A DNA stretch of 59,034 bases from assembly GCA_003167255.1 (NCBI GenBank), contig PMTR01000158.1, positions 1 through 59,034 on the forward strand. The letters run 5' to 3'. The DNA comes from Bryobacterales bacterium (GTDB lineage Bacteria > Acidobacteriota > Terriglobia > Bryobacterales > Bryobacteraceae). Shown here piece after piece: positions 28,381 through 55,990 of the stretch. Position numbers and translations under genes: made by a program. Under the pieces are notes generated by a model. It was not told the DNA's origin and searched no databases. It was given only the letters and a program-made list of their open reading frames with translations. Each line of letters opens with the position of its first letter. Positions within the stretch are counted from its first letter, which is position 1.

Positions 28381-28716
28381 TCAAGCCCGCTTGATGATGA
28401 CGATCAGGCGGTCCACTACTTCGTTGAGCTTGGACTCGGAAACGTGGCCGGCACGATAGACGATAATGCCCGCATCGGCCGTGAATAGCCGATTTGGGCG
28501 AATGCGGCTGCTCTGGTTGAGCCCTCCCGAGACGAAATCAACCGCATCGAGACGAATCGAGTATTCATCCGCTCGAACTTGGCTGGTGACCTGGCACAGA
28601 ATGACGTCATCGCCTGTCAGCGATGCGATCACGAGCGCCGGCCGCCGCTTTGTTTGGCTGAGGTCCGAGAAGGGGAAGTTGAGGACTACAATATCGCCTT
28701 TTACAAATTGGCCCAG
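28381..28716 (-). CDS. PemK/MazF-type endoribonuclease toxin with apparent CTG start
   Basis: Reading from CTG 28716 gives a 111-residue protein beginning MGQFVKGDIVVLNFPFSD and continuing LSQTKRRPALVIA. This is the hallmark N-terminus of PemK/MazF ribosome-independent mRNA interferases. No ATG, GTG or TTG exists before residue 29 (GTG 28632), which would delete the first strands of the fold. A strong GAGGAGG lies 7 bases before the CTG, and the frame opens right after a TGA. The CTG overlaps the last codons of the upstream antitoxin, so translation is coupled. Either CTG is used, keeping toxin dose low, or an ATG has mutated. Confidence 0.8.
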   Translation of the reverse strand: MGQFVKGDIVVLNFPFSDLSQTKRRPALVIASLTGDDVILCQVTSQVRADEYSIRLDAVDFVSGGLNQSSRIRPNRLFTADAGIIVYRAGHVSESKLNEVVDRLIVIIKRA

Positions 28717-28892
28717 GCCGTATCCTCCTCAGGCGTGAGCCAATCCTTAGCCAGTGACGATTCGGCGGCCAGCGCCGGCATTGCAGTCTCGGCATTTACG
28801 TCCTTGAGCGATCGCAGGAACGCCAGCAACTTGTCAAGATCCTGCTCCGGAATGTGATCCAACTCGCGGGCGATCAGTTCCCGTTTGCTCAT
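28701..28892 (-). CDS. Probable antitoxin partner of the PemK/MazF-like toxin
   Basis: The 63-residue product (MSKRELIARELDHIPEQDLDK then LLAFLRSLKD...) ends in an acidic, flexible tail (TPEEDTAWANL) that overlaps the toxin start. Size, position and acidic end are typical of antitoxins that wrap around PemK/MazF. ATG 28892 has GAGG 5 bases upstream; longer in-frame starts (28919, 28976) run into a hairpin and lack support. Its N-terminal helix resembles small DUF2281-like antitoxins, but I cannot name the family with certainty. Confidence 0.7.
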   Translation of the reverse strand: MSKRELIARELDHIPEQDLDKLLAFLRSLKDVNAETAMPALAAESSLAKDWLTPEEDTAWANL

Positions 28893-28925
28893 TTCAGCCT
28901 CAATTCCATCGTAAGGCATTTTAGC

Positions 28926-28946
28926 GCGCCCGGGCGGCCCGGGCGC
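28926..28946. other. Perfect GC hairpin upstream of the toxin-antitoxin operon
   Basis: A 9-bp stem (GCGCCCGGG / CCCGGGCGC) with a 3-base loop sits 34-54 bases ahead of the antitoxin start. It may be an operator, leader hairpin or terminator. No U-tract follows on either strand. Confidence 0.45.
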
Positions 28947-29069
28947 CGTTTGGTCTTGGCTAATTCGCTGGCGCAAACTGGGACAGTCCCATGGTTTCTC
29001 AGCACGGCGTGAGAAATGCGTCAGCTTTTGGCAAAGGGGGCGGGAGCAAAGCCCGGAGTCTACGTTCGA

Positions 29070-29383: not shown

Positions 29384-31084
29384 TTACTGAAGACTTGGAT
29401 CGTGTACCGGCCTGGCGTTGCTGTTGGCGATGAACACGTAGTCGGCGTAGACATCCTGTGTGTAGAATGGGCCGGCGCGCGGGGTGGGGTTCAGCATTTT
29501 TCGCATGGATGCCTTGATCTCATCCATGTTGACCACGCCGAGCGACCCTCCGTAGTGCCGCAGGATGGTGAGAAACGAGCGCGCAAACGGCGAGTGCCTG
29601 CCTGGGTCGCCGTCGTTCACGGCGCGGACACCGCCGGAGGCCAGATACATGCGCGAACGGCCTTCCATGGAGCGGTCGATGAGCTTCTGCTTGTCGCTCG
29701 GGTCGTCTCCGCGCAACCTGGAGTCGGCAATGGCTTTGTCAAACGTGCCGCCATAGCAGACGTCCAGCACCACCAGGATATGCTCGACTGGCAAATGGTC
29801 GATCATGTCGCGAAGCTCGGAGAAAGACGTGAACGAGGAACGGGCAACGTCATCGGCTGCGATCTTGGTATCGGCGCTGATCAGGTAACCAATGCCGGTC
29901 TTGGAAAAATCGCCGTGGCCGGCAAAATAAATCAGCAGGCGGTCCTGCTTGGAGAACTTGCGGTTCTGCAGATCTGCAAGAGCCGTGTAGACCTGTTCCT
30001 TGGTGGGATTCTTGGCGATGTCGGAAGGCACGTATCCGTAGTTCGCATCCAGTTCCTGCTTCAATATCTCGGCGTCGTAAATCGGATTGTTCAATGGGTC
30101 CCAGTGAGCGTATTGATCGCCAGCGAAGATCAAATAGTAATCCTTGCCCTGGCTTCCGGAACTGGCTTCGGTCTTATCATCCGCCACCAAGCCGCCGCCG
30201 CGCATGGCGGACGCCTTGGTCTTATCCACCACTTTCAGTGGCAGGGTGCGCATAGTCGACCGGCTCACCAATTGGACTTGAGAGGCGCCGTTGAGCAGCT
30301 TGGCGTTGATACTGGGGATTTTCCAGGTCAAATATCCTTCCAATTCGGCCTCGGTGATGACTCCATCGTGGTCCGCGTCGGCTTCCCCTTCAAGCCCCTT
30401 CAGTAGGGCGTAGGTCATCAAGCCGTGGCCGAGCTGTAGCACTTCCAGCTCCTGGCCTTCGAGTCCGAAAAGCGCGAATTGGCGGTCCACCGCGCGCAGG
30501 GTGAAATCAGGATCGGCATTCAAGGCTTCATGCAGCGACTCCAGAGCGGAATCGGAATCGCAACTGTCGAGAATCACTAGTTGCTTCCGCGCCGGCACCA
30601 GCTTGAGGAATTCGCTGAGGTCGCGCGAGGAAAGAGCGGACTCGTAGACATTGGCCTTGGGCCGCAGGATGGTGTCGGCAGTGGCGAACTGGAATTCGCG
30701 CTGGCCGCCTGCCAGTTTGGCGGCCTGGCCTGTCCCGGCATAGAAGAACAGCAGCACATCTTCGGGCTGGGAAGCGTCGGCGATGCGGCGGATGGCAGAC
30801 TGGATTCCCGCGCGCGTCGCTGCGGAGTCTCGTAGCAGGGTGACTTCCACGCCACTGAAGGCCGCAGTCTTCCCGGCTTTTTCGAATGCCTGCGCCACGG
30901 AGACGGCATCGGCGACGGCAAACTCCTGGTTGGGCAGTCCGGACTCCGGCCCGTAGCGGTCGATGCCGATCGAAAGAACGTGCAATTTGGGCACTACTTC
31001 TCGCCGAATGCCGGCGCGCAGGAATGGCAGCGCGAGTAACGCCACGCTCAATCCAACGGCCGTCATGAAACGCCAGTTCCGCAT
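29384..31084 (-). CDS. Exported protein with two caspase-like (C14) domains, first one degenerate
   Basis: The 566-residue protein starts with a signal or anchor (MTAVGLSVALLALPFL). Counting from the ATG one codon upstream at 31087, a first caspase fold spans about 35-275. Its Cys is present (LDSCDSD, Cys176), but the His loop reads FFYAGTGQ, so Thr119 replaces the catalytic His. Within it, DADHDGVITEAE (237-248) resembles an EF-hand calcium loop. The second caspase fold spans about 314-555 with an intact pair, His391 (FAGHGDF) and Cys444 (LDVCYGG). ATG 31084 is preferred because AGAGG lies 5 bases upstream. Such tandem pseudo-active plus active domains suggest internal regulation. It follows the next caspase gene by about 17 bp, as one operon. 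Confidence 0.85.
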   Translation of the reverse strand: MRNWRFMTAVGLSVALLALPFLRAGIRREVVPKLHVLSIGIDRYGPESGLPNQEFAVADAVSVAQAFEKAGKTAAFSGVEVTLLRDSAATRAGIQSAIRRIADASQPEDVLLFFYAGTGQAAKLAGGQREFQFATADTILRPKANVYESALSSRDLSEFLKLVPARKQLVILDSCDSDSALESLHEALNADPDFTLRAVDRQFALFGLEGQELEVLQLGHGLMTYALLKGLEGEADADHDGVITEAELEGYLTWKIPSINAKLLNGASQVQLVSRSTMRTLPLKVVDKTKASAMRGGGLVADDKTEASSGSQGKDYYLIFAGDQYAHWDPLNNPIYDAEILKQELDANYGYVPSDIAKNPTKEQVYTALADLQNRKFSKQDRLLIYFAGHGDFSKTGIGYLISADTKIAADDVARSSFTSFSELRDMIDHLPVEHILVVLDVCYGGTFDKAIADSRLRGDDPSDKQKLIDRSMEGRSRMYLASGGVRAVNDGDPGRHSPFARSFLTILRHYGGSLGVVNMDEIKASMRKMLNPTPRAGPFYTQDVYADYVFIANSNARPVHDPSLQ

Positions 31085-31101
31085 CATTTCCTCTTACCCT
31101 C

Positions 31102-33456
31102 CTACTTTTTCTCCGCCGGTTTGGGGACGCTTCGTATCTGAAGATACTGTACACCCCAATCGGCGGTGATGGTCAGGCCGCCCGAGCGGGTGCCGGAGCT
31201 GGTGGAACGGAGGAGATCCTCGAGGGCGCTGCCGCCGCCGCCGCGCGTGGCGGCGCCTTCGAAGTTCAGCACCCCTGGATCGGGTAGTTGGTCGGCGGTG
31301 GTCAACAGCACGTAAGTATCCAAGCCGAAAGGCGCCCGAATTCCGAGTTTGTACCTGCCTAGCGGAAGGGGAATTTCGTCCAGCTTGCCGTCTTGGTTCG
31401 GGAACTGGTTTTCGCCGCCGGTCACCGGGAACAGGAGCGTGCCCTGGCCATTGCAGGCGATGGTGAACACGTAGACCCATCGGGGAGAAACGGCGCCCGG
31501 GCGATCCGACTTCAGCACCAGGTTGTATTCTTCGCCGTCGACCGCTGGCGCAGCGCCGGCGTAGACGCCATCGGATGCACGCTTCAGCGCGAGGTGGTAG
31601 GCGAAATTACTGCTGCCCTGAAGTCCAGGGGGAAGTTCCAGCCAGCCGTGAACCTTGGCCAGGCGGGAGGCGAGCTCGCCGAGGTCGCGGGCTGCCTCGT
31701 CGAGCGATGCGGCGCCGGTGGCGGGTACCCAGTCGGAGCGCAGCGGGTAAGGCGAGTCCGCCGAACAGACCGCTTCCACGCCGGCGGCCGCCGATGCTGT
31801 GATGCCTTGTTCCAGCGCGGTCCGGCGAAGCCAGGCGTATTGGAGTTGGCTTCCGGTGGCGGTTCCCACCAGCAGGTACGGCGCGGCGCCAGGCGAGGCG
31901 GCGGCTTCCAGAATGCTGGTGGGCCCGCCGATTTTCCACTTGGCCGCCATCTCAACCGGGGGCGGCAGATTCACCAGAAGCCTCACGCCGGCGGCGTTGA
32001 GGCGGGAGGCGACGGCTTGTGCGCTGGGCTTGGCGCCCAGGCTGGTCTTTTGCGTGGAGCCTGCCCGCGAGAGCACCCACTCGCGGCCATCCCAGGAGAT
32101 TTGATGCGTAGGCGCCTGCTGCACCGGGTCGGTCACCCAGGTGAGGTGCGCCAGCCCGGGGAGTTGGGAGAACTCGCGCGCGGCGGCCTGGATGTCCTGG
32201 TAATGCAGGTTGGCGCTGCCGGTCCAAACGGCCAGGCGGCTGGCCGGCGGGGGAGCCCATTTGGTCACTTCGAAGAGGTCGCCGATCGAAACCGCCGCTT
32301 CTTTCGGATTTAGGATTTCGGCGGTGGAGCGCGCTACGCCCTCGAGGCTACGAACGCGGATCCGGGCTCTCTGCCGTGCTTCGGTGACCTGCACGAACTC
32401 GCTGCCGGGGCCGATATTGCTGGCGATTCCGGCATCCAGCGTAACCGAATTCCCATCGACCTGGAGGATGGCTGCGCGCGTCTTGCCATCTGCGGCGCCG
32501 GCGCCCAACATGGGCTCGGCCAGGCGGTTCGTCGAGTTCGAAATCATGGGCTGCTGGTTGGTGAGGCCCATGCCCTCCATCACGACTTTCACGCGCCTGT
32601 ACACGTCGGCTGAGGAGGTATTGGCGGGAAGCGTGCCCAGCGCATCCACCAGCGCCACGGTGAACGCGCCATGACCTTCGTCTCCGAGCCACTTTTCGTG
32701 GGAAAGCTGGTCGGGCTGGGTGGCGGAGAAGATCAAGGCGGGGTTGTTGGCGCGATCTTCGGGAGCGGTCACTTCCTTGCCATTCTTCATGTCGGGCGGT
32801 TCGTTGATGTCGCGGGGGTCGTAGGCCAGATAGCGGGTCTTGCCTTCCTCGCCGAGAGTGACGCCGCGGGCGATGGTGCCGCTGTTGCAGCTATCGAAGA
32901 TGGCGGTGAGGCGGATGCCCTTATCGAGAGCGGCGTTGAAGATGCGGGCGATTTCGCGGTCGCGGACGTCGAAAGCGCCGGAGCCGGCGTCGATGGGGAC
33001 GATGGTGTTGTCGAGGTGGTTGGCGCGCTTGAGGGATTTCGAATTCTTACGCAAGGAGCCGTGGCCGGCGTAATAGAAGACTACCTGGTCGCCGGATTCG
33101 GGCTTGTCAACCAGGTAGGTGCGCATGGCGGCGAGGATGCCTTCGCGAGTGGCTTCCATCTCGGGGAGAATGTGGAGGTGGTCAGGGTCGCTCGGAAAGG
33201 CGAACTTGGCCGAGGTGAGCAATTTCTTTACGGCGTCGACGTCATTGAGGGAACCCCCGAGGTCTAACCACTTGGGGATTTCGAAGCGGCTGGGGCCGGC
33301 GCCATCACCGGGGGTGGCCTTGGGACCGGCGGAGGGTTTGTAGCCGGTGCTGTATGACTGGATACCGATCAGCAGGGCCCGCTTGTCGGCGGCGTGAGCG
33401 GACGGAACGAGCAGGAGCAAGAGCGCCGGAAGAGAGCGATAGGCCAGGGTGCGCAT
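31102..33456 (-). CDS. Exported caspase-family protease with C-terminal DUF4384-like domain
   Basis: From ATG 33456 the product is 784 residues with a clear signal peptide (MRTLAYRSLPALLLLLVPSAHA). The caspase p20-like domain begins KRALLIGIQSYS and has catalytic His132 (YYAGHGS) and Cys190 (FDSCNSG). A middle beta-rich region follows. The C-terminus (EEYNLVLKSDR, WVYVFTIACNGQGTLLFPV) matches the DUF4384 pattern often found behind bacterial caspase domains. Longer starts at 33471 and 33522 are open but would bury the signal peptide. It sits 113 bp after the big WD40-caspase gene and ahead of the double-caspase gene, all on the minus strand. Substrates are unknown; bacterial orthocaspases usually cleave after Arg or Lys. 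Confidence 0.88.
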   Translation of the reverse strand: MRTLAYRSLPALLLLLVPSAHAADKRALLIGIQSYSTGYKPSAGPKATPGDGAGPSRFEIPKWLDLGGSLNDVDAVKKLLTSAKFAFPSDPDHLHILPEMEATREGILAAMRTYLVDKPESGDQVVFYYAGHGSLRKNSKSLKRANHLDNTIVPIDAGSGAFDVRDREIARIFNAALDKGIRLTAIFDSCNSGTIARGVTLGEEGKTRYLAYDPRDINEPPDMKNGKEVTAPEDRANNPALIFSATQPDQLSHEKWLGDEGHGAFTVALVDALGTLPANTSSADVYRRVKVVMEGMGLTNQQPMISNSTNRLAEPMLGAGAADGKTRAAILQVDGNSVTLDAGIASNIGPGSEFVQVTEARQRARIRVRSLEGVARSTAEILNPKEAAVSIGDLFEVTKWAPPPASRLAVWTGSANLHYQDIQAAAREFSQLPGLAHLTWVTDPVQQAPTHQISWDGREWVLSRAGSTQKTSLGAKPSAQAVASRLNAAGVRLLVNLPPPVEMAAKWKIGGPTSILEAAASPGAAPYLLVGTATGSQLQYAWLRRTALEQGITASAAAGVEAVCSADSPYPLRSDWVPATGAASLDEAARDLGELASRLAKVHGWLELPPGLQGSSNFAYHLALKRASDGVYAGAAPAVDGEEYNLVLKSDRPGAVSPRWVYVFTIACNGQGTLLFPVTGGENQFPNQDGKLDEIPLPLGRYKLGIRAPFGLDTYVLLTTADQLPDPGVLNFEGAATRGGGGSALEDLLRSTSSGTRSGGLTITADWGVQYLQIRSVPKPAEKK

Positions 33457-33569
33457 GGTGGTAAAGATCATATCAGTTGAGAAGCGCGCCATGTAGCAGC
33501 CGGCGAGCAGGAGAAACGGCATTGGTCCGGGGGTTTCCGCGAGGCAGTATCCTACCGCGGGCGGTTCAA

Positions 33570-36500
33570 CTATCTCTGACCGCGAAGCAGGAGCCCGAGG
33601 AGGCCAGCCGTGTACCCGTCCGGCCTATCGCTTAACGGAACGATGCCGCCCTGGGTGTTGCGGAATATCCTCGTCCACGATTCGCGCGGTGCGTCGAAGC
33701 GGTCGTCCGGAGCTTCCACAAAAAGTGCCTGTGTACCCGGCACAGGTCTGATCCGCGCCAACAATTCCCCGGACGCGGCGTCGTAGATCTGACAGCCCCC
33801 TGTATTCGACAGAACGGCAAGCAGTCTGCCGTCGCCTGAAAACGCTAGTGCCGTCACGCTCGAATCGAGTGGGGCGAGAATGGTGGAACGATTGTCATCT
33901 TTCCCCAACTCTACAAGGGCGACCTCGCCGTCGCGGTCCGCGGCTGCAATCAGCCTTCCATCCGGACTGAACTGAAGCTGGCTGGGGCCGAAACTGGATG
34001 GCAGCTTTCTAAGCACCGAATGCTTTCTAACGTCCACCAGTTCGAACTCCGAGTTGGTCACGATGGCTGCCGTCTCGCCGTCCGGGTCGAGTGCGAAGGC
34101 CAAGATGCCGTTTAGGGCAGCGCCCTGTATGTCGACGATCCTTTCTTGGCCATTTGGTACCGGGTATACATGGACTGTCAATGCAGGCCCCTGCTCCATC
34201 GCGAGTGCCGGCTCGCCATCCGCCATGGTCCACTGCAGCGGCCCGCAGCCACCGTCCCTTGAAGAAGCCAGACGCTGTGCCCGAAACGCAGGCGTCTCCG
34301 CAATGAATAGGGAATAGCCTGTAGCGCCGGGCTTCGCGCACCAGGCCAGCCTGCTGTAGTCGGCGCTCATCGCCGCAGTCCCCGCTTTGACCGGGATACT
34401 CGCCAGAATCTTGAGCGAGGCCGGGTGATAGGCGCGGATAGTGTTTCCATCAGAGGAGACTATCGCCGCGGAGCCATATTGGATCGTGGCGCCGGCTCTC
34501 TCTGCGGAGTGGAATTCGAATCCGCCGGCTCCCGCGCGGTAGGAGTACAGATCGCCGAAGGTAAGGCCACCGGATGCGCTGGTCACGCGCTGGCCTGCTA
34601 TCGTGAGGTTTTCATTCGAGATGCTGACCACCTGCGCCGTTCCCTCCAACCTGACAATGGCGGTTGCCTCCGGCGTGCCTGCCTTCCACACGGCCAGTGA
34701 AGCGCTGCTTGCCGCTGCAATCGTCGCACCGCTCGATGCCAGATAATCGTAGCGCCACCCTTTGGAAACCGGCGTGCGCATGAGCGGCGCGCCTGGTCCG
34801 CCAATACTGCAAAGATCCCCCGTGTCGCCGGCGATCAGAAAAGCACCGTCGCGGAATAGAACGGTGTTGGGGTTCATCGGAATCTTCACTGGCTGGCCAG
34901 TCTCCCGCCCTTCGCGCACATCCCAGAAACGAACGAAGCCGTCAGCGCCGGCCGAAACCAGAAGAGATCTGGCGGGATCGTAAGCCGCCCCACGAAACTC
35001 CGGGTGCGTGCCCAGTTTCCGCATGTTGGGGCCCGCCGGGCCGGGCTGGTCGAGGTCCACAACGTAGATTTCGCCTCCCATGATTTGGTCCCCGATGCGC
35101 GCTCCATAGTTGGCCGCGATCAGCACATGACGGTTGCTCCAGATGGGCCGAAGACCGTACCGGTTCACGCGAGCCAATACCGTTCCTTTTGCTGCATCCA
35201 GTATCTCCACGCCATCCGCCAGACCCAGCAGGAGCGTGCCGGAATCCAACCATTCGATTCGCCCAAAGTTGGACAGCCGCGCAGGCGAGAGCGCGGTGAA
35301 TCGCGAACGCTCCGCTCCAGAGGAGAGATCGACCAGCGAGACATCCGCTTCCGTTGTCAGACACGCGAGCGTCGATCCATCCGGGCTCAGGGCTGCCGCC
35401 ATAATGCGGGGTGGCCCCGATATCGAACGCACGGGCAGCAGGTCCGGCAGCCGCCAGATACGAATTCGGCCCGTCGATTCCGCGGTGATCACCCAGTCCT
35501 CGCGCGGGCCGATCGCCAGCGCCTTTACGTCACCGGGGTTGGACTCGGGCAGAATAAACCGTTCGGGGATGGGTTTAGCAGCGCTCACGCGAGGCTCGAC
35601 GAGCGAGCCTTTGACGGTCAAGGTTAGCGGATCGATGTCAACGGTCGTGGCGGCGACGATGAGAGGCGGAGCGCCGGGACGCCGTCTGGCTTGCAGCATG
35701 GGACGCTGCACCGTCGCGTTGTCGGGAGTTGCGCCGGGCGGCAGAATCAGTCCGGCGGCCCGTTTTGCGCTAACGGCTTCTTCATGCAACAAGGGGACAC
35801 GCCAGGCGGCCCAACTGAGCCAGTCTCCCAGTTCCAGCCCATCGCCCGTGGCATTCAACGCGCGGCCCTCTCTGAGGCCCTCTTCCACCAGCGTCCACGT
35901 CAGCAGCCCGTGTTGCAGCCGTTCCAGTTCCGCCGCGCTCTGATTCGATTGGGAAGCGGCGAGAAGCAGAATGTCCTTCTCAAACGCGAACTGAGCAAGC
36001 CCATCAGCATCGATCGGTCCACGCCTCCAATCACCGGAAGTCTGCGCCGCCTGGCCGGATTCGCAGGCATCGATAATCAGAGCAGCGGCGGCCACGTCGA
36101 GATCCTGGAGCGCTTCCACGAGATCGCTGTCTGAAATCGCCGTCTTGCGTGTCGCCGCTAGTGCGTCCTCGCTCCGGCCCGGGAAGACTACATCCTGAGG
36201 GAACAGATAGTAACTCTTTCCCTCCGCGTCCCCGTGTCCGGCAAAGAAGAGGATGAATGAATCCCGCGGCTGCGCCCTGGCAACCGTTTCGCGGATCGCC
36301 TGCAAAATTGCTTCCCGTGTCGCCTCGGCGTCGGTGAGGGTCTGGACCTTAATCTCCCCCGAAGATGCCAGGAAGGACATCAGTCTTGGGTCGTGATAAT
36401 CGCTGCCTGAGTTTTTAGCGCCTGTTTCAACCCGCCTCATCTCCCTGGCAAACTCCACAAGCTCGTCGCGCCCGCCACGCAGCGAGGCGGCGAGCATGCG

Positions 36501-39023
36501 GGCGTCATTGACCGCAAAGTTCAGCTTGAGGCTGGGATCGTGATATTCATTGATGCCGATGGCCAGCACATACAGGGTGCCCGGATCTGCGGGCACCGCC
36601 GCCCCACCCTGCACCTGCATCTCGGAAGGTTCGGTCCTGACACCGGCAGTGTTGAATCCGTATGCCGTGAAGACGTTAGTCCCGGACTCCAGGTGGACCT
36701 GGGCTCGCAGCTCACCACCGGCGGTTCCGTTCCAGCGGTGAACCAGCACGCCGTTTCGGAAGAGGCGAACATCGCGGATACCACCTGCCGGAGGCGCCGT
36801 GAGGCGGATATCGAGAGTGGTGGCGTCCGGGGCCGGTGTCGCGCCTGGACGGAATTCGAGAGGCGCGGTCTGGCGATCGAGCGTCTCGAGTTCAGCCGAG
36901 ATCCGCGGCAGGTCGCCGCTCAAAGCCTTTGCGAACAGGCCCGGATAGAAGAAGTCGCCAAAGTATCGCGCCGCGCTCGAATAATCGAAGGTGCCGCCGC
37001 TCATCCGCCATACGACCTCGTTCCAGGTGGTTTCGCTTCCATCGAAGAAGCCGGAATCGGTGAAAACCATCCACGGACCGTCGTAAGACCGCAGGTACAG
37101 CGTCGCCTGGAGCCTCCCGGTTTCGACGGCGAAGATATGTACAAAGTTCGTGGACGTCGCGGCGAGCAGCAGTTTGCCGTCGTCCCGGAACTTCAGGAAC
37201 TCGACCGGAGATCCGGCTTGGAGAGGCGCGCCGGACCTGTGCGAGGTGGCGACATCCCAGAAATCGATGTTTCCTTCTGAATTGCCAATAGCGAGACGAT
37301 TGCCATCCGGGCTGAACTCGATGGCTCCGCCGTCCGCATTCGAATCGAACGTAGTTTCGAAGCTGCCTCGATCGACATTCCAGACCATGGTCCGGCCACG
37401 GCTATCCAAAAGGGCCAGTCTTTTGCCATCGTGCGAGAATGTCATTTGACGAACTCCGAAGCGGCGGCCAAGCACGATCGGGCTTCCCGGTCTTGCTTCT
37501 TCTTTCACTTCAAACGACGCCGATTCATGCGCTGCGGGTAGAGACCAGACGCGGATGACCACCGTTTCTCCGGGCGGTCCTGCGACGGCCATGGCGTTTC
37601 CCGCCGGGCTCAACGCATAGGCCGAATACCAATCGTCGTCGGATCCGTTGTAGGGAACGCTCCGTTCGGACTTGGCGCTGGTGTCGAAAAGGCGGAGCGC
37701 CTTCTTCCCCTCGCCCCAGCCGGCGGCCCAGCGACCATCGCCGCTGATGGACTCAGCCCAGGCAATCCGCTCGACCTTGTCTTCCTTATGAGTCACCACG
37801 TGGCGGAAGACCAACCCGTTCCCGTCGTTCAGAACGATGAACGGGCCTTCCACGTTGTTGTGGCGCTCGACTAAGCCGATGGGACGAGCAAGGCTTCCCT
37901 CGATCCGTTCGACTTTTGCGCCAAGCGACCAAACGGCCGCGGAGTCGTAGCGGGCGAGGGAATTCCGTCTGGGACGATCGGCCAGCAGAACGCCCTCGGC
38001 ATCGAACAACGCGGCAAACGCCTCGATGCTACGTCCCGCGGACACGGTGCTGAGCGCGTTTTCCAGCGAACCGTCGAGCACCACCAGATCGCCGTTCACT
38101 GAGCCGCCGAGGACCACGCTACGGCCATAAACCGGCAACATGGACTGGGCGGAAAGGTGGGCGGGGTCCGACAGAGCCGTTCGGAAAGATCGGGAGGCAA
38201 CATCGAGTATCTGAAACCGGCGCTCGAACGAATATACTCCGAGTGAGCTTCCGTCTGAAGAAAATGCAATCGAGAGGGGATCTTTGCCAACATCTGCCGT
38301 ACCTGCTTCAAGGTGTTCATTCGATAACTGCCAGAGCTGCAAATTACCCTCGACGCCGACTACTGCCAGCGTGGATTCCGTTGCGTCGACGGCTGTGACA
38401 ATACGGCCTCGATGGCCTTCAAATCTTGTGAGTTCCTTCCAGGTGGCGGTGTCATATAGGAGGACCATTCCTGGAAGCGAGTTCGAGAAATCCGCGGGCG
38501 CGTGTGCGGCCACCAGCAACTTCCCCCCCTTTAGAAACTGCATGTGTGAAACCTCAAAAGCATCTGGCAGAGCAACAACTCTTGCGGCCCGTCCGCTTTG
38601 CGGATCCACACGTAAAATCTGCCGGAAGCCGGCCAGCAGGTAACTGCCGTCGGGCGACCATGCCAGCGCATTCGCCTGGTCCGGAAGGCTTTCGTTCAAT
38701 GAACTGACGGAGCCGTTTGAGGCATCGAGCAGGTCAACGGCAGAGCCGCGGCCGATCGCCAGAATAGCCCGCGACGGATGTGCCGCGATGGCTCGGGCGT
38801 CTCTCGCCGGAAAGGTGCGTAGATGGATTCCAGTGGGTATGGTCCAGATCTGAATGGCGGAGTGCGCTCCCGATGTCAGAGTGGCGAACCACTCGCCCTT
38901 TGGTCCAGCCGTCATGTCCGAAATGCCTCCGAGAGGCCGCAGAGGCACCACCAATCCGGGAGCCGCGCCGTAAAGACGCAGCGTGGCCTCGAGTGCGACG
39001 AACAGGACCTCGAGTTTTTTCAT
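33570..39023 (-). CDS. Giant exported protein: WD40 propeller - caspase - WD40 propeller
   Basis: From ATG 39023 this is 1,817 residues with a signal-like N-terminus (MKKLEVLFVALEATLRLYGA). WD40-like blades fill about 25-640 (FSHDGKRLALLDSRGRTMVW, FSPDGNRLAIGNSEGNIDFW). A short beta-sandwich linker follows, then a caspase domain at about 815-1100 with His930 (FFAGHGDAEG) and Cys987 (IIDACESGQA). A second propeller runs from about 1165 to the end (LSPDGSTLACLT, FSPDGRLIAAADRDGEVALV). Propellers usually present partner-binding faces, so this may be a scaffold-bound protease or a processed zymogen. It heads the three-gene caspase operon. A further 22 codons upstream are open but lack a signal. 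The orphan copy of its 3' end is at 39378-39440. Confidence 0.87.
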   Translation of the reverse strand: MKKLEVLFVALEATLRLYGAAPGLVVPLRPLGGISDMTAGPKGEWFATLTSGAHSAIQIWTIPTGIHLRTFPARDARAIAAHPSRAILAIGRGSAVDLLDASNGSVSSLNESLPDQANALAWSPDGSYLLAGFRQILRVDPQSGRAARVVALPDAFEVSHMQFLKGGKLLVAAHAPADFSNSLPGMVLLYDTATWKELTRFEGHRGRIVTAVDATESTLAVVGVEGNLQLWQLSNEHLEAGTADVGKDPLSIAFSSDGSSLGVYSFERRFQILDVASRSFRTALSDPAHLSAQSMLPVYGRSVVLGGSVNGDLVVLDGSLENALSTVSAGRSIEAFAALFDAEGVLLADRPRRNSLARYDSAAVWSLGAKVERIEGSLARPIGLVERHNNVEGPFIVLNDGNGLVFRHVVTHKEDKVERIAWAESISGDGRWAAGWGEGKKALRLFDTSAKSERSVPYNGSDDDWYSAYALSPAGNAMAVAGPPGETVVIRVWSLPAAHESASFEVKEEARPGSPIVLGRRFGVRQMTFSHDGKRLALLDSRGRTMVWNVDRGSFETTFDSNADGGAIEFSPDGNRLAIGNSEGNIDFWDVATSHRSGAPLQAGSPVEFLKFRDDGKLLLAATSTNFVHIFAVETGRLQATLYLRSYDGPWMVFTDSGFFDGSETTWNEVVWRMSGGTFDYSSAARYFGDFFYPGLFAKALSGDLPRISAELETLDRQTAPLEFRPGATPAPDATTLDIRLTAPPAGGIRDVRLFRNGVLVHRWNGTAGGELRAQVHLESGTNVFTAYGFNTAGVRTEPSEMQVQGGAAVPADPGTLYVLAIGINEYHDPSLKLNFAVNDARMLAASLRGGRDELVEFAREMRRVETGAKNSGSDYHDPRLMSFLASSGEIKVQTLTDAEATREAILQAIRETVARAQPRDSFILFFAGHGDAEGKSYYLFPQDVVFPGRSEDALAATRKTAISDSDLVEALQDLDVAAAALIIDACESGQAAQTSGDWRRGPIDADGLAQFAFEKDILLLAASQSNQSAAELERLQHGLLTWTLVEEGLREGRALNATGDGLELGDWLSWAAWRVPLLHEEAVSAKRAAGLILPPGATPDNATVQRPMLQARRRPGAPPLIVAATTVDIDPLTLTVKGSLVEPRVSAAKPIPERFILPESNPGDVKALAIGPREDWVITAESTGRIRIWRLPDLLPVRSISGPPRIMAAALSPDGSTLACLTTEADVSLVDLSSGAERSRFTALSPARLSNFGRIEWLDSGTLLLGLADGVEILDAAKGTVLARVNRYGLRPIWSNRHVLIAANYGARIGDQIMGGEIYVVDLDQPGPAGPNMRKLGTHPEFRGAAYDPARSLLVSAGADGFVRFWDVREGRETGQPVKIPMNPNTVLFRDGAFLIAGDTGDLCSIGGPGAPLMRTPVSKGWRYDYLASSGATIAAASSASLAVWKAGTPEATAIVRLEGTAQVVSISNENLTIAGQRVTSASGGLTFGDLYSYRAGAGGFEFHSAERAGATIQYGSAAIVSSDGNTIRAYHPASLKILASIPVKAGTAAMSADYSRLAWCAKPGATGYSLFIAETPAFRAQRLASSRDGGCGPLQWTMADGEPALAMEQGPALTVHVYPVPNGQERIVDIQGAALNGILAFALDPDGETAAIVTNSEFELVDVRKHSVLRKLPSSFGPSQLQFSPDGRLIAAADRDGEVALVELGKDDNRSTILAPLDSSVTALAFSGDGRLLAVLSNTGGCQIYDAASGELLARIRPVPGTQALFVEAPDDRFDAPRESWTRIFRNTQGGIVPLSDRPDGYTAGLLGLLLRGQR

Positions 39024-39175
39024 GGCGATATAATAACAGGAGTAAGAGCGCCGGCAGAGCGCGACGAGCCTGGGTGCGCTTAGCGGCAAAGATCATATCA
39101 ATTGAGACGCGACCCTTGTAACAGCCGGCGGGCAAGAGAAACAGCACTCGTCCGAGAGTTTCAACCAGGCAGTAT

Positions 39176-39357
39176 CTAGCCCGCTTTTCTCACCAGGTTT
39201 CGTTGCGAGGCGCGGCCCACCGGTGGGGCAGGCGCTTCCGCCTGCCAACCCTGATCACAGCGTGCACGCGCAACAAGCCAGTGGGACAGGCCTCCTGGCC
39301 TGTCGTTCCGGCCTTATCGCGCGCCCCGGCAGAAAGCTGATGAGAAATGCGGACTAG
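39176..39357. mobile_element. MITE-like element R3 with about 21-bp terminal inverted repeats
   Basis: Left end 39176-39196 and right end 39337-39357 are inverted repeats, matching at 18 of 21 positions (core CTGRTGAGAAA). Inside are a GACAGGCC-TCCT-GGCCTGTC hairpin and no coding capacity. Comparison with the homologous gene junction at 33440-33640, which lacks it, shows that this block is an insertion. Its right-hand 105 bases recur at 55991-56097. Confidence 0.7.
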
Positions 39358-39377
39358 CCGCGGGCTACGTTCAATCA

Positions 39378-39440
39378 TCTCTGCCCGCGAAGCAGGAGCC
39401 CGAGCAGGCCGGCCGTGTAACTGTCCGGCCTGTCGCTTAA
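39378..39440 (-). pseudogene. Orphan 3' end of a second WD40-caspase gene copy
   Basis: The minus strand reads LSDRPDSYTAGLLGLLLRGQ then Arg and stop. This is nearly identical to the last residues of the 1,817-residue gene (LSDRPDGYTAGLLGLLLRGQ). Beyond this match no other part of a caspase gene remains before ychF. It is the residue of a tandem duplication in which most of the upstream copy was deleted. Confidence 0.75.
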
Positions 39441-39507
39441 CTAATCCCATGACCGCGAGATTTTAGCCCATTGGAATACCGCTTCCTGAAGCGCGCGACT
39501 CGGATTA

Positions 39508-40660: not shown

Positions 40661-41653
40661 TTACAGGGGAACTTCCACCTGGCTCAGGATTTCTTCGATG
40701 ACCCGCTCGCCCGCGTCGGCGCGGCGCGGCGCCAGCGTGGTGCGGGCATTGATCACCACGCGATGCGCGAACAGCGGCGTGGCCAGCCGCTTCACGTCGT
40801 CCGGGATGGCGTAATCGCGGCCTTCCAGCAGCGCCAGCGCCTGCACCGCGCGATATAGGGCCTGCGATCCGCGCGGGCTCACGCCCAGCGCCAGCGATTC
40901 GTGGTTGCGGGTCTTCTCCACGATCGCCAGTATGTAATCCACCAGGGCCTCTTCCACGGTGACGCGGTGCACGGCATCCTGCAGGTGCAGCACGTCGGAC
41001 GCCACCAGCCCCGAGGGCGCCCCTTGCGGCAGCGCCCGGTCCGAATTGCGCAGGATCTGGCGCTCGCTGGCGGCGTCCGGGTAACCCACCCGCAGCCGCA
41101 TCAGAAAGCGGTCGAGCTGCGATTCGGGGAGCGGATAGGTGCCGTGGTGCTCCACCGGGTTCTGCGTGGCGATCACCATGAACGGCCGGGGCAGTTCATG
41201 CCGCTTCCCGTCGATGGTGACCTGGCCTTCGTTCATGGCTTCGAGCAGCGCCGATTGCGTCTTGGGGGTGGTGCGGTTGATCTCGTCGGCCAGTAGGAAA
41301 TTGCTGAAGATGGGGCCCGGTTTGAACTCGAAGGCTTCCGCGTGGGAGTTGTAAATAGTGACGCCCAGAACGTCGCTCGGCAGCATGTCGCTGGTGAATT
41401 GCAGCCGGTCGAAGCGGCACGCCACCGACCGCGCGAGCGCCTGGGCCAGCGTGGTTTTCCCGACGCCCGGCACGTCTTCGATGAGCAGATGTCCGCGCGC
41501 CAGCAGGCACACCAGGGACAGCCGCACGACTTCGGGTTTGCCGCGAAGGGCCGATCCGAGCGAGAGTTCCAACTCCGCCAGCCGGGCCAGAATTTGCGGC
41601 GAGACCCCAGCCGGCGGTGCGACGATTGAATCCCGCTGGGACATTACGTTCAT
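40661..41653 (-). CDS. MoxR-family AAA+ ATPase
   Basis: This 330-residue ATPase carries Walker A DVPGVGKTTLAQAL, Walker B FLLADEINRTTPKTQSALLEAM, sensor region FMVIATQNPVEHHGTYPLPE and arginine-rich lid elements. MoxR proteins act as chaperones for cofactor or metal insertion, normally next to DUF58 and von Willebrand genes; none is present here. A second ATG three codons in (41644) is equally possible. It lies back to back with tRNA-Val and ahead of ychF. Confidence 0.9.
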   Translation of the reverse strand: MNVMSQRDSIVAPPAGVSPQILARLAELELSLGSALRGKPEVVRLSLVCLLARGHLLIEDVPGVGKTTLAQALARSVACRFDRLQFTSDMLPSDVLGVTIYNSHAEAFEFKPGPIFSNFLLADEINRTTPKTQSALLEAMNEGQVTIDGKRHELPRPFMVIATQNPVEHHGTYPLPESQLDRFLMRLRVGYPDAASERQILRNSDRALPQGAPSGLVASDVLHLQDAVHRVTVEEALVDYILAIVEKTRNHESLALGVSPRGSQALYRAVQALALLEGRDYAIPDDVKRLATPLFAHRVVINARTTLAPRRADAGERVIEEILSQVEVPL

Positions 41654-42125: not shown

Positions 42126-42737
42126 ATGGCCCAGTCTCACCGTGAAGCGTCGCGGCGGCTCTTCGAAATCGCTGAGCAGCAGCAGGGCTTCTTCACCACC
42201 AAGCAGGCCAAGGCGGCCGGATTCGCCGAAAACACACACCCCTATCACGTGCAGGTCGGGAACTGGGTTCGCGAGCACCGCGGTATCTACCGGCTCGCTC
42301 TTTTTCCGACTGCTGATCGGCCCGACCTCGTCCTTTGGGCACTATGGTCCCGGAACCGGAACGAGGAAGTCGAGGGCGTATACAGCCACCACACGGCGCT
42401 CAGCCTCTACGATCTATCGGATCTGAATCCAGCGAAGCTTCACATGACTGTTCCGTCGGATTTCCGGCGCAACAGCGATATTCCCAACATTCTCGTACTC
42501 TATTATGCCGACCTGCCCGGAAGCGACATACAGACTGCGCAGGGTTTCAAGTATACGCGCCCGCTGCGGACGATTCTTGACCTGATCGAGGCTGGCACGG
42601 TCGAGAAAAACTTCATCCGGCAGGCTCTAAGGCAGGCCGTTGACCGTGGCCTGATTACTCGTCAACAGATTCGAAACGCGCGACTGATTGGACCCGCGCG
42701 CAAAATAGTTGAGGAAGTGCTCCGGCGAGTTGCATAA
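42126..42737 (+). CDS. AbiEi-family antitoxin / autorepressor (type IV TA)
   Basis: The 203-residue product has an N-terminal winged helix (LFEIAEQQQGFFTTKQAKAAG, FRE-like YHVQVGNWVREHRGIYRL). The AbiEi C-terminal domain includes GVYSHHTALSLYDLSDLNP, LHMTVPSDFRR, GFKYTRPLRTILDLI and LRQAVDRGLITRQQI. AbiEi represses its operon and blocks the AbiEii nucleotidyltransferase by antagonism rather than by tight complex. Its stop overlaps the toxin ATG by one base (42737). There is no ribosome site, in line with a leaderless message. It is the first gene inside the tRNA-bounded island. Confidence 0.88.
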   Translation: MAQSHREASRRLFEIAEQQQGFFTTKQAKAAGFAENTHPYHVQVGNWVREHRGIYRLALFPTADRPDLVLWALWSRNRNEEVEGVYSHHTALSLYDLSDLNPAKLHMTVPSDFRRNSDIPNILVLYYADLPGSDIQTAQGFKYTRPLRTILDLIEAGTVEKNFIRQALRQAVDRGLITRQQIRNARLIGPARKIVEEVLRRVA

Positions 42738-43618
42738 TGCCCTCACCAAGGACATATACGACGGCGGGAGCATTCCGAAGGGCTCTTGAGGAACACCTGA
42801 AGCGGGCCTCTATGGCCGATCAGGTCGATCTCAACCGCCTCCGGCGGCAGGTATCGTTCGACCGCTTGCTCGCAAGGCTGTTCCGGGAAGAACCAGCGCC
42901 ATGGGCGTTAAAAGGCGGTTATGCCCTGGAGCTAAGATTCAAGGGTGCTCGATCAACGGTGGACATTGACCTGACGTTGCAGCGAGTGGCGGGAGCGACG
43001 GCGGGTGTTGACACAAACCATGTGGTACGGGAGATGCTTCAGAGAACGGCTAACATTTCTCTCAGCGACTGGTTCGAGTTCGTAATCGGGCCGCCAGTCA
43101 TGGACTTGATGGCCGCGCCGTACGGTGGAGCCCGCTATCCGGTCGAAGCTCGAATGGACGAGCGGATCTTTGCCCGGTTCCATCTGGACGCCGGTATTGG
43201 TGACGTGGTTATGCAGCCGCTGGAAACAATCGTCTGCCGGGACTGGCTGGGGTTTGCTGGCATCGAATCGTCGCAGGTCCAGATGATTGCTCGCGAACAG
43301 CAGTTCGCGGAAAAGATCCACGCCTTCACGCTCCCGCGGAACGCTGCGAATAGCAGAGTGAAGGATTTGGTGGACCTGTCTCTCCTGATCGGGGCGGGTG
43401 GACTGGACAAGCGGAGGGTTCTGGATGCCCTGCGTCTGACCTTCGAGAGAAGAGGAACGCACGATTTGCCGGGAAATTTGGTTCCGCCGCCAGCGGATTG
43501 GCAGATTCCGTTTCGCGCCCTCGCGGAGGAGTGCGGCCTCTCGACAGATGTCGCCGCCGTGTTTTCGGCGGTACAGGAGTTTCTCGAAGAAGTGCAGGCA
43601 CCGCGCACAGAGCGGTAG
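42737..43618 (+). CDS. AbiEii/AbiGii-family nucleotidyltransferase toxin
   Basis: This 293-residue protein has the polymerase-beta-like nucleotidyltransferase core: LKGGYALELRF with the GG motif, then ARSTVDIDLTL carrying the DxD metal pair. Later HAFTLPRNAANSRVKDLVDL supplies the conserved Lys-Asp pair typical of AbiEii. Related toxins add nucleotides to tRNA acceptor ends and abort phage infection. It is coupled to AbiEi (TAATG overlap) and followed 7 bp later by the primase-helicase gene, so all three may be one transcript. Length is normal and catalytic residues look intact. Confidence 0.88.
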   Translation: MPSPRTYTTAGAFRRALEEHLKRASMADQVDLNRLRRQVSFDRLLARLFREEPAPWALKGGYALELRFKGARSTVDIDLTLQRVAGATAGVDTNHVVREMLQRTANISLSDWFEFVIGPPVMDLMAAPYGGARYPVEARMDERIFARFHLDAGIGDVVMQPLETIVCRDWLGFAGIESSQVQMIAREQQFAEKIHAFTLPRNAANSRVKDLVDLSLLIGAGGLDKRRVLDALRLTFERRGTHDLPGNLVPPPADWQIPFRALAEECGLSTDVAAVFSAVQEFLEEVQAPRTER

Positions 43619-43625
43619 ACGCCGT

Positions 43626-46085
43626 ATGAGTGAGAACGGTTCTGAGTCTCTTCCATTCGAACCTCCCGAGCAGGAAAATATTCGTCTCCGCGAGGAGAAT
43701 GCACGTCTGCGCCGGCTTCTGGCGGTTCACAGCATTCCAATTCCGCAACTGGCACCAGAGAATCCGCCCCCAACCAAAGCCGCTGGGCCGGCGTCCCCGG
43801 TGGATAAGGAGGAGCGCGCTAGAAGAAGGATCGCACTGTTTCGAAGCCTGTTTCGCGGGAGAGAAGATGTCTACGCACGGCGATGGGAGAATGATGATGG
43901 CCGAAACGGATATATGCCGGTGGTTGTAAAGGACTGGAAGGCGATCAACAGAAGCCGCCCGGAGGAGCGGAAGAAAGTCGACCAGAAGACACGAAAGTTC
44001 ATCCCGCTGACCGACACCGTCATTGAGAACCACCTCTTGGGCAAGGAAACTGTCGGCGTATATCCACTCCTGCCAGACGAAACTTGCTGGTTTATCGCGG
44101 CCGACTTCGACAAGAAGACTTGGGAGTATGATTCGCTGGCTTTCCTGGAGACCTGCCACGAGTTCAACGTGCCCGCAGGTTTGGAACGCTCCCGTTCCGG
44201 GAAGGGTGGACACATTTGGATTTTTTTCGACCGTGCGCTTCCGGCGATCACCGCACGCAAACTCGGATGCGTGCTCCTCACGCGAACCATGGAGCGCCGG
44301 CACCAAGTCGGCCTTGATTCCTACGATCGATTCTTCCCAAACCAGGACACCATGCCCAAGGGCGGGCTTGGGAACTTGATTGCACTTCCCCTACAGTTTG
44401 CGCCACGCAAGTCGGGCAACAGCGTATTCATCGATCCCGACTTTCACCCGTACCCCGACCAGTGGCAGTTTCTATCGGCGATCCGACGAATGACTGCCGA
44501 CACCGCGGAGGAGATCGTCGCGGAAGCGCAGCGCAAAGGCGATTTGATCGGAGTCCGGATGAGCCTAGCCGATGATGAGGAGGCGCACGACCCCTGGACG
44601 TTGCCACCTTCCCGCAAGCGGCGGGAGAAGCCGATCGAAGGGCCGCTGCCAAAGACTGTTCAGATCGTTCGCGCGAACCTTGTATATGCGGAAAGTGAGA
44701 ATTTGCCGCCAGCTATGCTGAATCGGCTACTCCGGCTGGCCGCATTTCAGAACCCCGAGTTCTACAAGGCTCAGGCCATGCGGCTCTCGACGTACGACAA
44801 GCCACGTGTCATCGCATGCGGCCAGGAATTCATCCAGCATATCGCTGTGCCTCGCGGATGTCTGACGGAGACCTTGGCGCTTCTCGAGGCGCACAAAATC
44901 AGGCCTGACGTTCGAGACGAACGCTACGCGGGCACGGCGATTGAAGTGGAGTTCCAGGGTCAGCTTCGGCCGTTCCAAGAGGAAGCCGTCGCGAGGATCA
45001 CTGCCCACGACGAAGGTATTCTCTGCGCTCCAACGGCGTTTGGGAAAACCGCCGTTGCGGCGTGGCTGATCGCGAAACGTAAAGTCAACACTCTGGTTGT
45101 CGTTCACCGGCAGCAGTTGCTCGATCAGTGGCAGGAGCGCCTTGGCATGTTCTTGGATCTGCCGGCGAAGTCGATCGGGCATATCGGTGGCGGCAAAATG
45201 GACCGGACAGGTCGTATAGACGTTGCCGTGATCCAAAGCCTTTATCGAAAAGACGAAGTGAAGGACTTCGTTGCTGAGTACGGCCAGGTGATCGTCGACG
45301 AATGCCACCACATATCCGCTTTCACGTTTGAACAGGTGATGCGGCAGGTGAAGGCTAAGTACGTTGTCGGTCTGACCGCCACGCCGACACGGAAAGATGG
45401 ACACCATCCGATCATTTACATGCAGTGTGGACCCGTGCGGTTTAGCCTGAGTGCCAAGACGATGATGGAGACGACTCCGTTCGAGCACAAGGTTACTCCC
45501 CGCCACACAGAATTTCGCATGGCGCCGGAACTCACCGAGATCACGATCCAAGACGTCTACGCCGCGCTCGTTAACGATCCCGTGCGCAACGAGATGATCG
45601 CAACCGACATCGTGCGCGCCATCGAATCCGGACGCAGCCCACTGCTTCTAACCGGCCGGACAGAACACCTTCAGTATTTCGCAGCCAAGCTCGAAGGTGT
45701 TGCCAAGCATGTCTTCGTCTTGAAGGGAGGCATGGGAAAAAAGCAACGTCGGGAAATATCGGCAGCGTTGGCGGCCGTGCCGGAAAACGAATCGCGAGTG
45801 ATTCTGGCGACGGGAAGCTACATCGGGGAAGGGTTTGATGACGCGCGTCTGGACACGCTTTTCCTGGCTATGCCAATTTCCTGGAAGGGCACGCTGCAAC
45901 AGTATGTGGGGCGGTTGCACCGTCTCCACGACAACAAGCGATTTGTGCAGGTCTATGACTATGTAGACGGCTACGTTCTGATGTTGGCCCGGATGTACGA
46001 GCGCAGGCTGAAGGGCTATGCCGCGATTGGTTATGTGATCGAGCAGGAGACGAATCCACCCCACGCCCCGGCGGCACATGCATGA
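43626..46085 (+). CDS. TOTE-type archaeo-eukaryotic primase fused to an SF2 helicase
   Basis: This 819-residue protein opens with a leucine-rich coiled segment (EQENIRLREENARLRRLL). The archaeo-eukaryotic-primase domain (about 50-330) has the DxD pair Asp160/Asp162 (FIAADFDKK), the GHIWIFF His motif and GLGNLIALPLQ. From about 440 it is a superfamily 2 helicase: Walker A variant TAFGKT near 472, DECH near 558 (VIVDECHHIS), GLTATPTRKDGHH, and QYVGRLHR. This arrangement is that of the primase-helicase of TOTE conflict systems, predicted anti-invader NTP-dependent machines. ATG 43626 is chosen over upstream codons that overlap the toxin. The nuclease partners sometimes found in such systems are not visible here. 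Confidence 0.85.
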   Translation: MSENGSESLPFEPPEQENIRLREENARLRRLLAVHSIPIPQLAPENPPPTKAAGPASPVDKEERARRRIALFRSLFRGREDVYARRWENDDGRNGYMPVVVKDWKAINRSRPEERKKVDQKTRKFIPLTDTVIENHLLGKETVGVYPLLPDETCWFIAADFDKKTWEYDSLAFLETCHEFNVPAGLERSRSGKGGHIWIFFDRALPAITARKLGCVLLTRTMERRHQVGLDSYDRFFPNQDTMPKGGLGNLIALPLQFAPRKSGNSVFIDPDFHPYPDQWQFLSAIRRMTADTAEEIVAEAQRKGDLIGVRMSLADDEEAHDPWTLPPSRKRREKPIEGPLPKTVQIVRANLVYAESENLPPAMLNRLLRLAAFQNPEFYKAQAMRLSTYDKPRVIACGQEFIQHIAVPRGCLTETLALLEAHKIRPDVRDERYAGTAIEVEFQGQLRPFQEEAVARITAHDEGILCAPTAFGKTAVAAWLIAKRKVNTLVVVHRQQLLDQWQERLGMFLDLPAKSIGHIGGGKMDRTGRIDVAVIQSLYRKDEVKDFVAEYGQVIVDECHHISAFTFEQVMRQVKAKYVVGLTATPTRKDGHHPIIYMQCGPVRFSLSAKTMMETTPFEHKVTPRHTEFRMAPELTEITIQDVYAALVNDPVRNEMIATDIVRAIESGRSPLLLTGRTEHLQYFAAKLEGVAKHVFVLKGGMGKKQRREISAALAAVPENESRVILATGSYIGEGFDDARLDTLFLAMPISWKGTLQQYVGRLHRLHDNKRFVQVYDYVDGYVLMLARMYERRLKGYAAIGYVIEQETNPPHAPAAHA

Positions 46086-46119
46086 TCCTGAACGTGTCAC
46101 TTGATCGGTGGTCGGTCCG

Positions 46120-46983: not shown

Positions 46984-46989
46984 GAGGCT

Positions 46990-47027
46990 ATAGGGGCGAT
47001 AGGGGACAGACGCATTTTCTTCCCGGG
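46990..47027. repeat. REP-like half hairpin, left copy
   Basis: GGGGACAGACGCATTTTCTT followed by CCCGG is preceded by two CGATAGGGG words. The same block recurs at 47271-47332 as a full hairpin. Such GGGACAGACGCATTTTC repeats are REP-type palindromes. Confidence 0.65.
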
Positions 47028-47055
47028 CGATAGGGGGCGATAGGGGACGGCGACC

Positions 47056-47258
47056 GCATCCCAGCTATGACGAGCCGGATCTGAATCCCACCTACCGCGA
47101 TCTGGGCGAGCACTACGGGGTGGCGATCATTCCGGCACGACCGTATCGAGCCAGGGACAAAGCGAAGGCAGAGGTGGGCGTTCAAGTAGTGCAACGCTGG
47201 ATCGTCGCGGCCCTGCGCAAGCACAAGTTCTTCTCTCTGGACGAAGCCAACCAGGCGA
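47056..47258 (+). pseudogene. IstA transposase fragment (IS21 family)
   Basis: The plus strand reads [20 protein letters not shown], then [20 protein letters not shown] and [20 protein letters not shown], a highly typical internal piece of IS21 IstA containing the last DDE-region glutamate (KAKAEV). Both ends stop abruptly in REP-like repeats after about 67 codons. No IstB or terminal repeats are present, so the element is dead. Confidence 0.8.
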
Positions 47259-47332
47259 TAGGGGACGGCGATAGGGGACAGACGGATTTTCTTCCCGGCA
47301 GTCGGGAAACTGCGTCTGCTCCCTGTCCCCCC
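47252..47332. repeat. REP-like full hairpin, right copy
   Basis: Two CGATAGGGGAC words lead into TAGGGGACAGACG-ATTTTC-CCCG, loop GCAGT, then CGGG-GCGTCTG-CCTGTCCCCCCTA. The result is a 62-base imperfect hairpin (47271-47332) directly abutting the IstA fragment. Confidence 0.7.
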
Positions 47333-47680: not shown

Positions 47681-47705
47681 CCGCGAACCGATCTGAATCC
47701 GCCGC

Positions 47706-55987: not shown

Positions 55988-55990
55988 CCC

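Follow-up and report, generated by a model that had tools for sequence, protein, structure and literature searches.

Three adjacent C14 caspase genes of different architecture, one of them a pseudo-caspase/caspase tandem, in an acidobacterium

Described caspase systems and the locus

Predicted operons with up to three metacaspases were described in 2012, the multi-gene operons coming from Alphaproteobacteria, Bacteroidetes, Cyanobacteria, and Deltaproteobacteria (Asplund-Samuelsson et al. 2012, PMC3501461). The same study names WD40, TPR_1, Sel1, and TPR_2 as the commonest partner domains, considers that many N-terminal helices may be signal peptides, and suggests surface or fratricidal roles for exported metacaspases. 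The window analyzed here is one whole contig of 59,034 bases from a soil acidobacterium, whose genome of 7.35 Mb lies in 200 contigs and is 98.85% complete. It carries three C14 genes, all on the same strand and spaced as in an operon, and is thus, as far as the layout tells, a multi-metacaspase operon, resembling those of 2012 in holding more than one C14 gene per predicted operon but coming from Acidobacteria, a group not among the four of PMC3501461. In the available text of that paper the word "tandem" does not occur and a set of the three types was not seen, and some of its Bacteroidetes operons may be of the present kind; in the open-access literature, we found no description of the tandem or of a recurrent set. 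The first-pass annotation of the locus could not match it to a described system, which has to be corrected for the multi-caspase operon as such and holds for the tandem and the recurrent set. The set is therefore a variant of the multi-metacaspase operons known since 2012, in which the tandem and the recurrence appear to be new.

Three other systems invite comparison. Pseudo-orthocaspases, in a study that deals mostly with the Tyr/Ser and Tyr/Asn variants of cyanobacteria, lack the HC dyad and keep the Asp residues of the pocket (PMC6426788). The loss of the HC dyad in a C14 domain is the same here, but the dead domain is fused to a live caspase, and Thr, Leu, Gln, Tyr, or Val stands in place of His. 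Caspases are also reported to activate EACC1 systems (PMC7159879). The model of the two-gene EACC1-caspase conflict system, NF047832, is the only NCBIfam model matched by the tandem protein P0001 (117.8 bits; P0002, 29.4 bits; P0003, 49.8 bits), all below the cut-off of 140. In contrast to that system, the gene 5' of P0001 is P0002, which encodes a caspase-DUF4384 protein, no EACC1 gene stands there, and P0001 looks exported. The pair of cFLIP and caspase-8 is metazoan, cytosolic, and Asp-specific, and consists of separate chains. By analogy, a dead caspase likewise stands next to a live one as its regulator in that pair, cFLIP having been called an inactive caspase (PMC8195603).

Architecture of the three caspases

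The three genes are transcribed on the minus strand in the order P0003, P0002, P0001. P0003 (33570..39023, minus strand; reading frame opening with a TTG at 39089) likely starts at the ATG at 39023 and encodes a propeller, a linker, a caspase, and a further propeller behind a doubtful export signal. P0002 (31102..33456, minus strand; reading frame opening at 33522) likely starts at the ATG at 33456 or 33471 and comprises a signal peptide, a caspase, and a DUF4384-like tail, while P0001 (29384..31087, minus strand; 567 aa) comprises a signal-type N-terminus, a pseudo-caspase domain, and an active caspase domain. That three consecutive minus-strand genes encode C14 proteins of different architectures, as first annotated, was borne out by the reading frames and by Pfam, where all three pass the curated cut-off of 21.4 bits for Peptidase_C14 (PF00656) with 86.6 bits in two stretches for P0001, 75.1 bits for P0002, and 55.0 bits for P0003. 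Of the spacings given earlier, about 17 and 113 bp, the latter stands for P0003-P0002 with the ATG at 33456 (98 bp with that at 33471), and the former was measured as 14 bp between P0002 and P0001. The genome contains 11 C14 genes, ten with a Pfam C14 match and one found by a custom profile, for which the Pfam scan did not list C14. With these 11 genes placed among an assumed 6,300, a run of three neighbors appeared in 9 of 400,000 random draws, so the adjacency is not due to chance. Promoter-like sites between 28.2 and 39.7 kb numbered 2, against 1.9 in shuffled sequences, and terminator-like sites 13, against 9.8, from which no conclusion was drawn. Behind the caspase genes, a PemK/MazF-like short reading frame (19.8 bits against a cut-off of 23.1) and a small reading frame occupy window positions 28381-28976 on the minus strand; the small one matches no family and may be the antitoxin of its neighbor.

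The first caspase domain of P0001 (residues 35-258; 30314..30985, minus strand) carries the motifs FYAGTG and LDSCDS, with Thr in place of His and the Cys retained, and the second (residues 314-531; 29495..30148, minus strand), of the lineage that we call L1, carries AGHG and LDVCYGG with an intact His-Cys dyad. The dyads were read after 31 C14 domains of six loci had been aligned together, and those of P0002 and P0003 are intact as well. The His is absent from the first domain in all six tandem proteins and the Cys in five, only the window's protein retaining it; these p20 domains with a substituted HC dyad are thus pseudo-orthocaspases. The second domain has an intact dyad in six of six proteins, as do the L1 domains overall (7/7). 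Among the 31 domains checked, all 22 active ones have an Asp two positions before the Cys (Cys-2), which we take to be the position of Asp211 in the trypanosome metacaspase MCA2. In MCA2, two Asp residues, Asp211 being one, accommodate basic residues (PMC6426788). From the Asp at Cys-2, cleavage after Arg or Lys is predicted, and the caspases of the locus may also need Ca2+. The pseudo-caspase domain of P0001 contains an EF-hand-like DADHDG loop; such loops occur in 5 of 74 C14 domains and in 12 of 557 background windows, which is too weak for a claim of Ca2+ binding.

The structure model of P0001 is of middling quality (pLDDT 61, pTM 0.44), and nothing was drawn from the placement of its two halves. 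The active half matches metacaspases and caspases, metacaspase-4 best (6w8r; Z 20.2, 2.5 Å over 203 residues), its best Foldseek match is GSU0716 of Geobacter, and 3h11, the complex of cFLIP with caspase-8, is among the fold matches of P0001. Since the fold-match rows span residues 311-557 only, the caspase fold expected from the first annotation is supported by the predicted structure for the active half of P0001, and that of the pseudo domain is suggested by sequence profiles and the predicted strand order. A sequence search of the PDB gave no match for P0001 and ten metacaspase sequences for P0002, and a search of plasmids with P0001 gave 17 records, none covering 80% of it in one place.

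The active domain of P0002 (32560..33390, minus strand), of lineage L2, has an intact dyad. The DUF4384-like segment behind it (31294..31536, minus strand) scores 19.7 bits against a cut-off of 27, so that of the domains named in the first annotation C14 passes in Pfam, propeller/WD40 gives matches, and DUF4384 stays below its cut-off. Proteins of the same layout in the genomes RYN_26 and G663 score 30.3 and 24.9 bits, respectively, which makes the label a fair but weak one for the tail of P0002. The structure model of P0002 (pLDDT 33) was unusable. In P0003, the active domain (35793..36581, minus strand; dyad intact) belongs to the propeller-type lineage L3 and is flanked on both sides by propeller/WD40 matches among the best 25 of 42 Pfam families.

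Export was scored with a simple hydrophobicity script, without SignalP, as the best 10-residue core. The cores of P0001 (2.60) and P0002 (2.64) are uncharged, and that of P0003 (2.20) includes one charged residue; five cytoplasmic controls reached 0.59-1.63, all lower than P0003. An export signal had been assigned earlier to all three proteins; on these scores it appears clear in P0001 and P0002 and doubtful in P0003. The propeller caspases tested from RYN_26 and Labilibacter have uncharged cores, and the G663 proteins have, by eye, signal-type N-terminal stretches. The complete Pfam lists of six proteins, three each from G663 and Labilibacter, contain no T9SS sorting tail; for a further G663 protein, the TPR-C14 one, the list gave the best 25 of 26 families. 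Signal-type N-termini together with the lack of a T9SS tail in these lists favor the periplasm as the probable site of the caspases.

The weak signal of P0003 may be connected with a rearrangement directly upstream of its gene, where a copy of its last 84 bp, an insertion with a repeat, and a copy of the P0002 leader follow each other. The first of these (39358..39441, minus strand; 87% identical over 84 bp) reads LSDRPDSYTAGLLGLLLRGQR followed by a stop, where the end of P0003 reads LSDRPDGYTAGLLGLLLRGQR; it has 21 codons with one residue changed and the stop in the same place. The last (39037..39176, minus strand) is 81% identical over 140 bp to the P0002 leader and 5' end in use (33412..33551, minus strand). 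The insertion contains the first copy of a dispersed repeat of ~110 bp (39250-39359 and 55988-56099; 89% identical). Taken together, the relic of the P0003 end and the copied P0002 leader point to a former second propeller-caspase gene, now lost, as the simplest reading of the region. P0003 now begins directly behind the copied leader, and its weak export signal may result from this position.

The tandem and its relatives in other genomes

We scanned a collection of 84,980 genomes with the tandem alignment, which gave eight loci, and surveyed Acidobacteriota (121 and 396 genomes) and Bacteroidota (296 and 148 genomes) with 3 to 4 candidates scored per genome, so that misses are likely; the reading frames of all loci were called mechanically by a script. 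Six loci have the pseudo-active tandem: the window, SbA4 (a Solibacteraceae bacterium of the same family as the window genome), Acidobacteria RYN_26, Labilibacter marinus, a Sphingobacteriia MAG, and G663 of the Bacteroidota. The tandem is rare, being present in 2 of the 121 and 2 of the 396 Acidobacteriota genomes, with the window's own counted in both. In the case of G663, one strand carries a C14-DUF4384 gene, after 20 bp a C14 gene with weak propeller matches, after 18 bp a gene for a three-caspase protein (C14 with the Cys lost, pseudo domain, C14), and after a further 869 bp a TPR-C14 gene. In Labilibacter marinus, two propeller-C14 genes separated by 27 bp are followed after 36 bp by a gene for the same type of three-caspase protein, all on one strand, and a separate L2 (C14-DUF4384) gene is absent from the stretch, where the P0002-type domain is present only in fused, dead form. 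RYN_26 has 11 C14 genes by the custom profile over ~52 kb, among them C14-DUF4384, DUF4384-pseudo-C14-C14, and six propeller-C14 genes, together with TPR-CHAT and subtilase genes. In SbA4, a stretch of 12 kb encompasses a tandem preceded by TPRs, a TPR-CHAT gene, and, 6.3 kb off on the opposite strand, an L2 caspase. The tandem of the Sphingobacteriia MAG has no other C14 gene in 21.7 kb. RYN_26 and G663 thus show all three architectures in linkage once more, and Labilibacter marinus comes close, so that the linkage noted in the first-pass annotation was found elsewhere, and its recurrence in a distant phylum suggests a genuine system of several proteases and not an accident.

Two neighboring families were noted at these loci. 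A TPR-CHAT gene follows the tandem on the same strand in SbA4 (L030:9242-14857, gap of 469 bp) and RYN_26 (L092:3380-8077, gap of 36 bp), and its product is a possible further partner of the tandem; none was seen beside the caspase genes of the window. In five of the nine L2 loci examined, those of the window's family, a protein family of ~380 aa with, by eye, twin-arginine-like N-termini is encoded near the L2 gene (L030:5968-7065, L031:8194-9330, L033:10892-12031, L037:9706-10857, and L040:10011-11216). No Pfam match was obtained for the members of L030 and L040 and no NCBIfam match for those of L040 and L031, and tblastn found no member in the window.

The lineage labels L1, L2, L3, and PS are our own and derive from profiles built on a first tree, L3 in this labeling being the wide propeller-type group. 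In a second tree of 83 domains, from which the rows of L116, L114, and one L097 protein had been dropped beforehand, L1 forms a set of 15 rows (support 100/99) and L2 a set of 17 rows (100/99), and P0003 belongs to a set of 19 rows (100/99) nested in a propeller-type clade of 35 rows (96/87), which also holds the propeller caspases of Labilibacter and G663 outside the 19-row set. The three active domains of the window therefore lie in three separate supported clades and did not arise from one another by recent copying. All six pseudo domains group together within the propeller-type clade, with a support of 96/66, which is under the two-test mark; the first tree, with five pseudo domains, did not settle their placement and long branches were flagged, so that the grouping comes from the second tree alone. 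That the dead domain arose once, from a caspase of the propeller type, appears to have moderate support from these sequences. Labilibacter and G663 contribute the first domain of their three-caspase proteins to the L2 set as well, which means that in these proteins an L2 domain is fused ahead of the pseudo-active pair, just as P0002 stands before P0001. Both fused L2 domains retain the His but not the Cys, and the Cys is also missing from one propeller caspase of RYN_26.

C14 genes of other lineages cluster too; C14 clustering was therefore rejected as special in itself, and the tandem loci were compared with lone-L1 loci instead. The tandem/L1 profile matched 43 of 148 genomes of the order of G663, and 20 lone-L1 neighborhoods from those 43 genomes (18 from the upper list, with G516, G893, G907, and G946 skipped, and two lower) showed neither a pseudo domain nor a second C14 gene. 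To these, 13 further lone-L1 loci were added (L110, L113, L134, and L136-L145; L114, a 4.7-kb contig, was excluded). A second C14 gene is nearby in 5 of 6 tandem loci and in 2 of 33 lone-L1 loci (L134 and L139), with a Fisher p of 0.0002, or 0.0006 when the eight Flammeovirga loci among the 33 (L113 and L139-L145) are collapsed to one, p values that serve as a guide only, the loci being related and several of them ended by contig edges. The lone-L1 loci are 11.5 to 20.7 kb long, and some neighbors or much diverged pseudo domains may have been missed. L1 usually occurs without the set.

A tentative model and its alternatives

We tentatively favor an extracytoplasmic C14 protease module of the Arg/Lys type whose live domain is governed by the dead one. 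The architectures, dyads, recurrent linkage, fusion in two genomes, repeated inactivity, and signal-type N-termini of most members on which it builds are read from the sequences. In such a module, exported C14 proteases would act together, most likely in the periplasm, with the L3 propeller protein and the L2 DUF4384 protein as separate Arg/Lys-type proteases whose extra domains would bind partners or sense a signal. In P0001, a dead copy of a caspase, probably a propeller-type one, would be joined to an active L1 caspase and would most likely be a built-in regulator or docking site, restraining the L1 protease until its release by an L2 or L3 enzyme or by a bound ligand. We infer the cascade, which the first-pass annotation suggested next to a programmed processing of the surface, its order of activation, its substrate, and its trigger from this arrangement, and the module may have a role in killing, defense, or envelope repair. 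Several points weigh against it. L1 mostly occurs without the set, as the 20 neighborhoods from 43 of 148 genomes indicate; the tandem is rare and stands by itself in the Sphingobacteriia MAG; and the Labilibacter stretch has no separate L2 gene. Moreover, the grouping of the pseudo domains derives from one tree, other C14 lineages cluster as well, the export signal of P0003 is weak, and the model of P0001 is middling.

A rather unlikely alternative is a lineage-specific expansion, in which exported caspases became neighbors through duplication and act singly, each with its own substrates. The duplication and deletion scar upstream of P0003, the six propeller-C14 genes of the RYN_26 cluster, and the usual solitude of L1 would suit it, as would the numbers in two further genomes: G087 has 21 C14 matches, several of them on shared contigs, and the Flammeovirga genome G517 has 19 matches to the tandem/L1 profile. 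However, an expansion does not agree well with three active domains from three separate clades, with the recurrence of a similar combination and of a domain fusion in two phyla, or with the linkage of 5/6 tandem loci against 2/33.

The surroundings of the locus bear on a second alternative. A defense island begins 3 kb upstream of the caspase genes (window 42126-52915, from a family scan of the window's flank) and includes AbiEi/AbiEii (42126-43618), a TOTE primase-helicase (43548-46085), PsyrA/PsyrT (PsyrTA; 47706-51109; 417.7 and 949.7 bits), and a Schlafen-type AlbA_2 gene. Between the island and P0003, on the same strand as P0003, lie genes for YchF and for a MoxR-type AAA ATPase (40661-41653), the latter 1.6 kb upstream and two genes from P0003 with YchF between. 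With this island so close, the view that the caspases belong to a defense or conflict system against phage or neighboring cells, in which propeller and TPR parts would serve for recognition and the caspases would do the killing, gains weight, and the module favored above loses some, since the island would suit a cytoplasmic role as well. The PADLOC caspase model matches all three caspases, the distribution is patchy with turnover of paralogues, TPR-CHAT partners are present in RYN_26 and SbA4, the activation of EACC1 systems by caspases (PMC7159879) is a precedent, and the MoxR-type protein passes the bpMoxR model of MoxR-vWA-propeller systems (32.3 bits against a cut-off of 27). The PADLOC match, however, is at the level of the domain, the MoxR-type protein fits AAA_3 far better (213 bits) and is separated from P0003 by YchF, P0001 and P0002 look exported, and the evidence from defense genes is that of the window's own flank. 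We consider a defense system unlikely on balance. A set for envelope maturation or digestion, with a role like that of gingipains and clostripain, which are exported Arg/Lys clan-CD proteases, would agree with the signal-type N-termini, the predicted basic-specific pocket, and the subtilase of the RYN_26 cluster, but is improbable, as neither a gingipain-like C25 domain nor a C11 match is found in the complete Pfam lists of P0001 and P0002 and the large repeat arms and dead caspase suit regulation better.

Returning to the module controlled by its dead domain, it is possible, though doubtful, that Acidobacteriota and Bacteroidota have a periplasmic caspase relay in common, its effector being the pseudo-caspase/caspase protein on which the propeller and DUF4384 caspases would act, possibly in defense. 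If true, such a relay would follow, in bacteria and outside the cytoplasm, the same logic as initiator, decoy, and executioner caspases. Should the dead domain indeed control its live neighbor, it would be a pseudo-caspase regulator of bacterial origin that shares one polypeptide with the protease it regulates and probably lies outside the cytoplasm. The proteins form a small cloneable set with clear predictions for the dead domain, the basic P1 residue, and Ca2+, and Labilibacter marinus Y11 is a named strain in which bacterial caspase relays could be probed.
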